The notes below the pieces were generated by a model that was not told the origin of the DNA, searched no databases, and saw nothing but the letters and a program-made list of their open reading frames with translations. DNA of 45,070 bases from the NCBI GenBank assembly GCA_902810735.1, contig CADDYX010000003.1, positions 1 through 45,070 on the forward strand. The letters are read 5' to 3'. Positions within the stretch are counted from its first letter, which is position 1. Every line of letters begins with the position of its first letter. This DNA is from Verrucomicrobiota bacterium. GTDB taxonomy: Bacteria; Verrucomicrobiota; Verrucomicrobiia; Chthoniobacterales; UBA10450. The position numbers were made by a program, and so were the translations under genes. Below, in pieces: positions 25,160-27,188 of the stretch.

Positions 25160-25687
25160 ATGCCGCGGCATCTTGTTATCAGCACCAGTGGAAATCCCGA
25201 CAGCAACAGCCGGCGCATGGGCCGGATCGCGTATGAATATCTGCACAACAAAAAGGTGGACTGCGAATGGCTCGACATTGCGGGCCTGGGGCTGCCGTTG
25301 TGCGATGCCGACGCGTGCTACTCCGAACCGGCCGCCCGAAAATTGAATGCGGCGGTCAAATCGGCGGACGGCATTCTGGTGGCCGCTCCGGTATATAACT
25401 ACGACGTGAGCGCGGCGGCGAAAAACATGATCGAGCTGACTGGCAGCTCGTGGGAAGACAAGATTGTTGGATTCCTCTGCGCGGCCGGCGGCATGAGCAG
25501 CTACATGTCGGTCATGGCGTACGCGAACAGCCTGATGCTCGATTTTCGATGCGTGATCATTCCGCGATTTGTGTATGCCACCGGCCAGGCATTTAAGGAC
25601 GACGAGTTGAGTGATGCGAAGGTGATGGAGCGGATCAAACAGGTGGCCGACGATCTTGTTCGGTTCACCGCTGCGCTGCGCAGTTAG
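25160..25687 (+). CDS. NAD(P)H-dependent FMN reductase-like flavoprotein
   Basis: This 175-residue flavodoxin-fold protein has a phosphate-binding loop at the N-terminus (STSGNPDSNSRRMG, residues 8-21) and the APVYNYDVSAAAKNMIE motif near 76-92. The second is diagnostic of the NADPH-dependent FMN reductase family, which includes azoreductases and ArsH-like quinone reductases. It probably reduces flavin or quinone with NAD(P)H in the cytosol. It starts two bases after the TraB-like gene, so the two are likely co-transcribed. Confidence 0.88.
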   Translation: MPRHLVISTSGNPDSNSRRMGRIAYEYLHNKKVDCEWLDIAGLGLPLCDADACYSEPAARKLNAAVKSADGILVAAPVYNYDVSAAAKNMIELTGSSWEDKIVGFLCAAGGMSSYMSVMAYANSLMLDFRCVIIPRFVYATGQAFKDDELSDAKVMERIKQVADDLVRFTAALRS

Positions 25688-25755
25688 GCAGTCGCGGCAT
25701 GCGATTTCCGACAATTGGTTTGCAACCGGCCCGCGCGGTTTGGTATTCCTGCTGG

Positions 25756-26847
25756 ATGCGTTTATTCCCTCGCAACTTGGGCAAAGGCCTTCTCGCTTTT
25801 GCGTTCCTCCTCATCGCGGTCGGTTTGCATGCGGCTCCGCCGCCCGGCGTGCTCGATGCGTCGCATGCTTCGGTTCGCGCCGTGATCGCGGTGCAGAACA
25901 ACGTGACTGCGCAATGGATGCGCCAACGCGAAGTGCTCGGCACCGCTGTCGGCCTGGACACGGCTGGCAAGCCTGCGCTGATGGTTTATATCGATCGCGA
26001 CGCCAGCAATGCCGGCGAAGTGATTCGCAACCTGCCGCGCAACGTCAGCGGCGTCGGCGTCCAGGTGGAGTTGACCGATAAATTCCGCGCGATGGCCGGC
26101 AAGCCGTCCTCCGGCGTTAGCCACACCGCGATTCAGACACCGCCGATTCAACTCGGCACGTCCGGCGGTTGGCAGAAGGACCTCGCGAACGGCTACTGCT
26201 GCGGCGGTACCCTTGGCTCACTTATCCAGATCGGCAGTGCGCAATACATTTTGAGCAACTACCACGTCTTTGAATCCGACACCGTTGCCGGCGGCAACAA
26301 CACGACCGCGCAAACCGGCGATCCGATCGTCCAGCCCGGATTGATCGACGTCAATTGCAGCGCGAGCTCGACGCAGACCGTTGCCACGCTGGTGAAGAAG
26401 AGTTCGCTCCCGAACAACAACGTCGACTGCTCGATCGCGCAGGTAGTTTCCGGCCAGGTCGACGCGACTGGTAAAATCCTTGAGATCGGCACGATTTCGA
26501 AGACCACCGTCGGCGCGTCGTTGCGGCAGGCGGTCAAGAAGAGCGGCCGGACGACTGGGCTGACGCGCAGCTCCATCTCTGGTTTGAATGCGACGATCAG
26601 CGTGACTTATGACAATGAATGCGCTGGCGGAACGGCGTTCACGAAAACGTTCACCGGCCAGATCGTGGTCGCGAACAAAGGCAGCAAGTTTCTCAACAGC
26701 GGAGATTCCGGTTCGTTGATGGTCGAGGACGCGGCGACCAACCCGCACGCGGTCGGTCTGCTGTTCGCGGGAAGCAGCACCGATGCGATCGCGAATCCGA
26801 TCGGCGACGTGCTGAGCTTCCTCGGCGCGACGATGGTCGGCCAGTAG
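25756..26847 (+). CDS. Exported trypsin-like serine protease with N-terminal pro-region
   Basis: From ATG 25756 this is 363 residues. It has a signal peptide at 1-26, a pro-region at about 41-112 and a chymotrypsin-fold protease from about 130. The triad is His170 (SNYHVF), Asp224 (NNVDCSIAQV) and Ser318 (NSGDSGSLMV). KKSGRTTGLTRSSI at 261-274 matches a beta-strand typical of bacterial S1/S64-like trypsins. The pro-region has the pattern VLGTAVGLDTAGKPALMVYI...RD...LP...GVGV, which reappears in the small gene at 26904. An ATG at 25699 is also in frame but gives a poorer signal. Confidence 0.87.
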   Translation: MRLFPRNLGKGLLAFAFLLIAVGLHAAPPPGVLDASHASVRAVIAVQNNVTAQWMRQREVLGTAVGLDTAGKPALMVYIDRDASNAGEVIRNLPRNVSGVGVQVELTDKFRAMAGKPSSGVSHTAIQTPPIQLGTSGGWQKDLANGYCCGGTLGSLIQIGSAQYILSNYHVFESDTVAGGNNTTAQTGDPIVQPGLIDVNCSASSTQTVATLVKKSSLPNNNVDCSIAQVVSGQVDATGKILEIGTISKTTVGASLRQAVKKSGRTTGLTRSSISGLNATISVTYDNECAGGTAFTKTFTGQIVVANKGSKFLNSGDSGSLMVEDAATNPHAVGLLFAGSSTDAIANPIGDVLSFLGATMVGQ

Positions 26848-26864
26848 CCGCAGTTTTGGATGTG

Positions 26865-26896
26865 AACGCCCGCTCGCGTCAGTGTGAGCGGGCGTT
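26865..26896 (+). terminator. Rho-independent-type terminator after the protease gene
   Basis: An 11-base perfect stem, AACGCCCGCTC and GAGCGGGCGTT, with a ten-base loop, followed by TTTCGCTTT. It lies 18 bases after the protease stop and just before the next start at GTG 26904. It could lower, rather than fully block, read-through into the small gene. Confidence 0.75.
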
Positions 26897-26903
26897 TCGC
26901 TTT

Positions 26904-27188
26904 GTGATCGCCGCATCGCTTCTCGTCGCGACTAGCGTCATGGCGCAGTCCCCTTCTCCGCCGGAGCATGGTGAAATAAGTGCGGTGCTGGAACAGCATC
27001 GCGCAGAGTTAATGCGCGTGCCGAACGTTGTCGGCACCTACGTCGGTTTGTGCGCGGACGGAAAAGCGCTTTGCATTCACGTGATGCTGTCGCGCGATAC
27101 GCGGGAAACCCGAAGCGCGCTGCCGAAAACCATCGCCGGTTACGGCGTTGTCGTCGACGTCAGCGGCGAAATTCGCCCGCTCAAGTAG
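26904..27188 (+). CDS. Small exported protein resembling the upstream protease's pro-region
   Basis: From GTG 26904 this is 94 residues: a signal-like stretch (IAASLLVATSVMA) and a mature domain of about 70. The mature part lines up with residues 57-111 of the upstream protease. NVVGTYVGLCADGKALCIHV matches EVLGTAVGLDTAGKPALMVY, followed by a shared RD, LP and GxGV(V/Q)V spacing and a closing R. Two cysteines (50, 57) occur in the small protein and not at those sites in the protease. A longer start at GTG 26862 gives a more basic n-region but would lie in the terminator stem. It could be an inhibitor, a chaperone in trans or a remnant of a gene duplication. The stop is four bases from the convergent TPR gene. 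Confidence 0.7.
   Translation: MIAASLLVATSVMAQSPSPPEHGEISAVLEQHRAELMRVPNVVGTYVGLCADGKALCIHVMLSRDTRETRSALPKTIAGYGVVVDVSGEIRPLK

Follow-up and report, generated by a model that had tools for sequence, protein, structure and literature searches.

A NAL1-like serine protease beside a small exported protein of its N-domain type in a Verrucomicrobiota soil bacterium

Why would a soil bacterium carry, just behind the gene for a secreted serine protease, a second gene for a small exported protein that resembles part of that enzyme? The stretch of DNA analysed here (45,070 nucleotides in full; hereafter, the window) contains such a pair on its plus strand. An earlier note on this DNA had read the small protein as a stand-alone copy of the protease's own pro-region, acting on the enzyme as an inhibitor or chaperone.

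The protease and its small neighbour

The protease gene (25756–26847, with an in-frame ATG upstream at 25699) encodes an exported protein of 363 amino acids. Its Sec-type signal peptide (MRLFPRNLGKGLLAFAFLLIAVGLHA; 25756–25833, read from the sequence) is followed by an N-terminal domain (residues 36–113; 25861–26094) and by a linker to the catalytic domain (26095–26136), which was delimited by alignment and has low pLDDT at residues 117–125. In relatives, the linker is variable in length and often glycine-rich, and it is almost missing from the alignment in L020 and L022. The catalytic triad was intact, and its residues His170 (SNYHV, 26263–26265), Asp224 (NVDCS, 26425–26427) and Ser318 (GDSGS, 26707–26709) were all invariant in an alignment of 21 sequences. 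The protein passed the Pfam Nal1_C model (31.9 bits against a cut-off of 26.1; E 9.9e-8) and is the only Nal1_C protein in its genome. Its predicted structure, with a pLDDT of about 90 or more in the N-domain and fair to medium confidence in the catalytic part, gave rice NARROW LEAF 1 (NAL1; 8pmi, 8pmi_B) as the best Foldseek match (E 5.1e-11, TM 0.55, over most of the length), and the next structural kin of the catalytic domain were the streptogrisin and alpha-lytic proteases. The window's enzyme is a NAL1-like, trypsin-fold serine protease with an N-domain of the NAL1_N type. It shares with rice NAL1 this domain, a trypsin-type core, a Nal1_C score above threshold and a long fold match, whereas identity in the structural alignments is about 15% and the window's enzyme is exported and bacterial. 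In rice, both leaf width and yield are under the control of NAL1. Upstream of the pair, at 25160–25687, lies a gene for an NADPH-dependent FMN reductase; L069 also has a gene of this type upstream, and L064 has one downstream.

The small gene was annotated at 26904–27188 from a GTG at 26904, and its product is an exported protein with a stand-alone NAL1_N-like domain (26964–27182, E 5e-28). A start at GTG 26904 leaves just about 14 residues ahead of the likely cleavage site. From the sequence, GTG 26861 appears to be the better candidate, as the signal peptide is then fuller and has a charged n-region containing arginines. Small genes of close relatives in the family had dN/dS values of 0.08–0.23, indicating purifying selection. 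The earlier note had also suggested that two extra cysteines could form a disulfide in the small protein; only the second was invariant among 15 members and the first was not conserved, and a disulfide conserved in the family was thus rejected.

The resemblance of the small protein to the N-terminal region of the protease, on which the earlier note was built, was upheld. BLASTP aligned the two proteins with 31% identity over protease residues 16–113 (E 4e-8). Because this alignment begins in the signal peptides and takes in their residues, profiles trimmed to the domain (protease residues 36–113) were also compared, and they matched with 98.6% probability and an E of 8.8e-16. In whole-genome searches, each protein was the sole other match of note to its neighbour (E 3e-5 with the small protein as query, E 4.8e-4 with the protease). 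The predicted structures follow the same order of helix-strand-strand-helix-strand, with helices at residues 6–23 and 53–58 and strands at 28–35, 42–48 and 66–72 in the small protein (mean pLDDT 82.7), and helices at 38–54 and 86–92 and strands at 60–67, 73–80 and 100–107 in the protease. The small protein and protease residues 36–113 are homologous and have the same predicted fold.

Scans of the small protein against Pfam and NCBIfam gave nothing useful, and it did not reach the cut-off of the Pfam NAL1_N model (PF25608). Its assignment to NAL1_N was therefore made through intermediates and fold: 6 of 20 members of the broader set matched NAL1_N (best 9.5e-8), and the Pfam model was also reached by remote, cytosolic homologues that carry this domain. 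Run on 145 genomes of the phylum, the NAL1_N model gave 2 marginal matches and was thus too weak for a survey, so our own profiles were used.

In the trees, the stand-alone proteins formed one clade (support 98/94) that was separate from the bulk of the N-domains (98/95), with the window's small protein on a long branch; the deeper forks were poorly resolved because the domain is short. Since the stand-alone proteins have a clade of their own, a recent origin of the window's gene from its neighbour, by duplication of the N-domain, was ruled out. The small protein belongs instead to an old separate lineage, and the wording of the earlier note, a copy of the protease's own pro-region, does not hold.

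A GC-rich, terminator-like hairpin with a broken T run (26862–26900, plus strand, −29.5 kcal/mol) lies between the protease stop and GTG 26904. The earlier note had described it as a strong hairpin separating the two genes. The hairpin itself is real, but its intergenic position depends on the start codon, as translation from GTG 26861 would place it inside the coding sequence. In 10 of 18 pairs, the same intergenic place holds a stem of −20 kcal/mol or stronger, and the stem sequences differ; in some other pairs, the small gene can begin 22–50 bases past the protease stop and such a stem is absent. A consensus terminator scan did not list the window's hairpin, owing to the break in its T run, a consensus promoter scan found no promoter near the pair, and a promoter would not fit between the stem and GTG 26904. 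Judged from its sequence, the hairpin may terminate most transcripts and so give unequal amounts of the two gene products.

Distribution of the pair

We surveyed 83 genomes of the family, counting as the protease the type with an N-domain and including fragments; those loci that have named records come from Verrucomicrobia/Chthoniobacterales MAGs. Both genes were present in 23 genomes, the protease only in 2, the small gene only in 3 and neither in 55 (Fisher p 4e-15, a value that ignores shared ancestry; presence was patchy within genera). Among genomes at least 90% complete, the corresponding numbers were 8, 1, 0 and 23 (p 9e-7, ancestry likewise ignored). In 18 genomes, one contig carried both, with the small gene behind the protease. 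The two genes thus travel together in relatives, mostly side by side, as the earlier note had anticipated. In the three genomes with the small gene only, all of them less than 90% complete, the protease was not detected. In six genomes of one genus (L075, L076, L078, L079, L081 and L082), the small gene was apart from the protease, and a full-length protease was still present in at least two of these genomes (G013 and G018). These unlinked small genes were mostly beside a sulfatase-like gene (MRPPNLLVFLPDQQRTDT). When ten loci were compared, the flanks varied and the pair was the part of the neighbourhood kept in most of them, antisense open frames aside. Several relatives have both genes in the same frame; a read-through product was considered and rejected, as the small open reading frames have their own signal peptides.

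Searches with broader profiles found stand-alone domains beyond the family. One lies downstream of a NAL1-like protease in G249 and carries a lipobox (LLSAC), and one that appears cytosolic follows the protease by a few bases in G339. In G451 (L103, 1019–1408), the protease is a shortened remnant with GDTGS for GDSGS, and an intact stand-alone gene begins 2 bases on. A stand-alone domain lies just upstream of a NAL1-like protease in G065:C19 and just downstream of one on a Rubrobacter plasmid, and on two Rhizobium plasmids the two genes are divergent. The Rhizobium pairs (L089 and L139) adjoin genes for a radical SAM protein and a putative peptide modification protein with an HEXXH motif, an arrangement that resembles a peptide-modification cluster. 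These occurrences beside NAL1-like proteases in three other families and on plasmids indicate a recurring two-gene module. A secreted protease goes with a secreted small protein, and in G339 and L062 both partners seem to be cytosolic. The stand-alone partner is optional, since none was detected for many NAL1-like proteases of the class and of plasmids. In G134, a degraded stand-alone domain had no protease nearby, and the domain profile gave no match to a small open frame that adjoins the protease on the R. leguminosarum plasmid L142.

Kinship and mobility of the domain

Against solved structures, the top Foldseek matches of the small-protein model were the pro region of alpha-lytic protease (2PRO, 3PRO and 4PRO; probability 0.98–1.00), with a modest likeness (TM 0.50–0.57, best E 8e-3); rice NAL1 gave a TM of 0.51–0.61. 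The alpha-lytic pro region is a foldase (PMC2829044). A sequence-profile search of solved structures with the small protein gave no credible chain, that pro region included, and the Pfam model of the alpha-lytic pro region matched none of 15 members at E values up to 10. As no sequence link to it was found, common descent is no more than possible.

Alpha-lytic protease and streptogrisin have a related catalytic fold, and the former supplies the top fold match of the small protein. They differ from the window's system in that the domain can here be a separate gene or stand at the C-terminus, and sequence similarity to any solved chain was not significant. The solved NAL1 chains keep the N-domain, which need not then be a pro-region that is removed.

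The domain also occurs in other places. The proteases of G017, G077, G074, G065 and G056 (L027–L029, L083 and L138) lack the N-domain and have a similar domain at the C-terminus, a layout that recurs in three other families (L150, L152 and L154). On the tree, these C-terminal domains fell into two distinct groups, and they scored slightly better against the N-domain profile; an origin as fused copies from the stand-alone clade was not demonstrated. In G027 (L109; G027:C6, 88–1857, minus strand), a PLD-like protein has an N-terminal domain of the NAL1_N type (27.9 bits, above the Pfam cut-off), which shows that the domain also occurs outside proteases. Together, the C-terminal position and the PLD-like fusion suggest a general docking module. 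Further layouts were seen: proteases with long C-terminal FG-GAP/VCBS-like repeats in L018 (1384–3363) and L024 (G056 and G065), with no small gene directly behind; a putative serine protease of the archaeal Aeropyrum coil-shaped virus (L088, 2483–3463), the N-terminus of which matches the domain; and, on a Gemmatirosa plasmid (L144), two NAL1-like proteases in tandem with an N-domain in each.

The identity of the domain as a pro-region is therefore unproven, since its alpha-lytic-like fold stands against its retention in NAL1 and its C-terminal placement in relatives. The profile match, the agreement of the folds and the pairing in relatives, on which the earlier note had staked its proposal, were all found. 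A partner with homology to the N-domain, a conserved pairing and a likeness to the alpha-lytic pro region stands; the pro-region status of the domain, which is kept in NAL1 and occurs in C-terminal and PLD-like forms, is not established.

Possible role of the small protein

Many relatives, and members of other phyla too, have the pairing, which makes it probable that the small protein is dedicated to the protease, as its regulator or as a helper in its folding. Stated as a trans-acting inhibitor or folding partner, a reading drawn from sequence, models and analogy, the proposal has in our judgement an even chance of being right. The grounds for it are the domain homology, the likeness to a pro region, the co-inheritance, the matching compartment and two precedents. 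In Streptococcus pyogenes, the gene next to that of the secreted protease SpeB encodes the inhibitor Spi, described as a propeptide analogue (PMC2873492). SpeB is, however, a cysteine protease of family C10, a class other than that of the window's enzyme, and the function of SpeB/Spi has been tested while the window's pair is known from sequence. In SUB1-ProM, a stand-alone propeptide-like inhibitor adjoins protease genes (PMC6993865). SUB1-ProM, the yeast peptidase B inhibitor and Pleurotus peptidase A inhibitor 1 stand alone and resemble a protease propeptide, as the small protein does; they belong to subtilisin proteases and have the I9 propeptide fold, in contrast to the chymotrypsin-fold enzymes here, and no homology to the small protein was found. 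With such inhibitors, the small protein shares two traits, namely similarity to a domain of the neighbouring protease, and adjacency with co-inheritance.

We infer binding of the small protein to the protease, inhibition or help in folding, and an effect of the hairpin. In this proposal, the two genes would form a self-contained module of a secreted NAL1-like protease and a dedicated secreted partner of the N-domain kind. The partner would dock in trans on the catalytic domain, on the surface where a cis N- or C-terminal domain packs. It could aid the folding of the enzyme, as the alpha-lytic pro region does, or, as the more likely lasting role, restrain the protease at the cell surface or in the periplasm. 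The hairpin could set unequal amounts of the two proteins.

The chief rival takes NAL1_N as a packing or docking module, so that the small protein would be an assembly or adaptor subunit that joins an oligomer or bridges the enzyme to a substrate or the envelope, and would be neither inhibitor nor chaperone. The retention of the domain in NAL1 structures, its movement between the N- and C-terminus and its fusion to a PLD-like protein favour this rival, which fits almost as well as the regulator reading. A lipobox in some relatives of the small protein (G249, and L070, L013, L014, L017 and L019) would fit an anchor; most stand-alone proteins, the window's included, have no clear lipobox. The best structural likeness is nevertheless to a pro region, and the co-occurrence is with one enzyme type, so we hold an adaptor to be somewhat unlikely. 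Self-protection of the immunity type, in which a partner kept at the envelope would shield the protease-producing cell and would take no part in folding, would fit the secreted or lipid-anchored forms and the roles proposed for Spi and the staphostatins (PMC2873492). The apparently cytosolic pairs of G339 and L062 argue against it, sequence cannot separate it from an inhibitor or folding partner, and we regard it as quite improbable. That the small gene is a neutral leftover, an old duplicate or detached domain with no tie to the protease, as its unlinked copies in one genus and the long branch of the window's protein might suggest, is very hard to credit given the dN/dS values, the co-occurrence and the linkage in several phyla.

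Returning to the small protein as a regulator or folding partner, a separate N-domain partner of bacterial NAL1 homologues was not described in the open-licence literature, which is weak evidence of novelty; nor was one found described for NAL1 itself, and that literature did not state a role for the NAL1 N-terminal domain. Tentatively, the NAL1-type N-domain, that of rice included, may derive from or work like an alpha-lytic-type pro region, with bacteria of several phyla encoding it next to the protease as a free regulator that acts in trans; we think this somewhat less likely than not to be so. If true, the small proteins would form a class of regulators, dedicated to chymotrypsin-fold NAL1-like proteases, of which we have found no description, and would extend stand-alone propeptide-like regulators from the subtilases and SpeB to NAL1-like trypsin-fold proteases. 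The pair offers an annotation route for unnamed small genes beside NAL1-like proteases and, as a natural two-gene system in which the N-domain is encoded separately, it would allow the role of this domain to be tested directly in trans.
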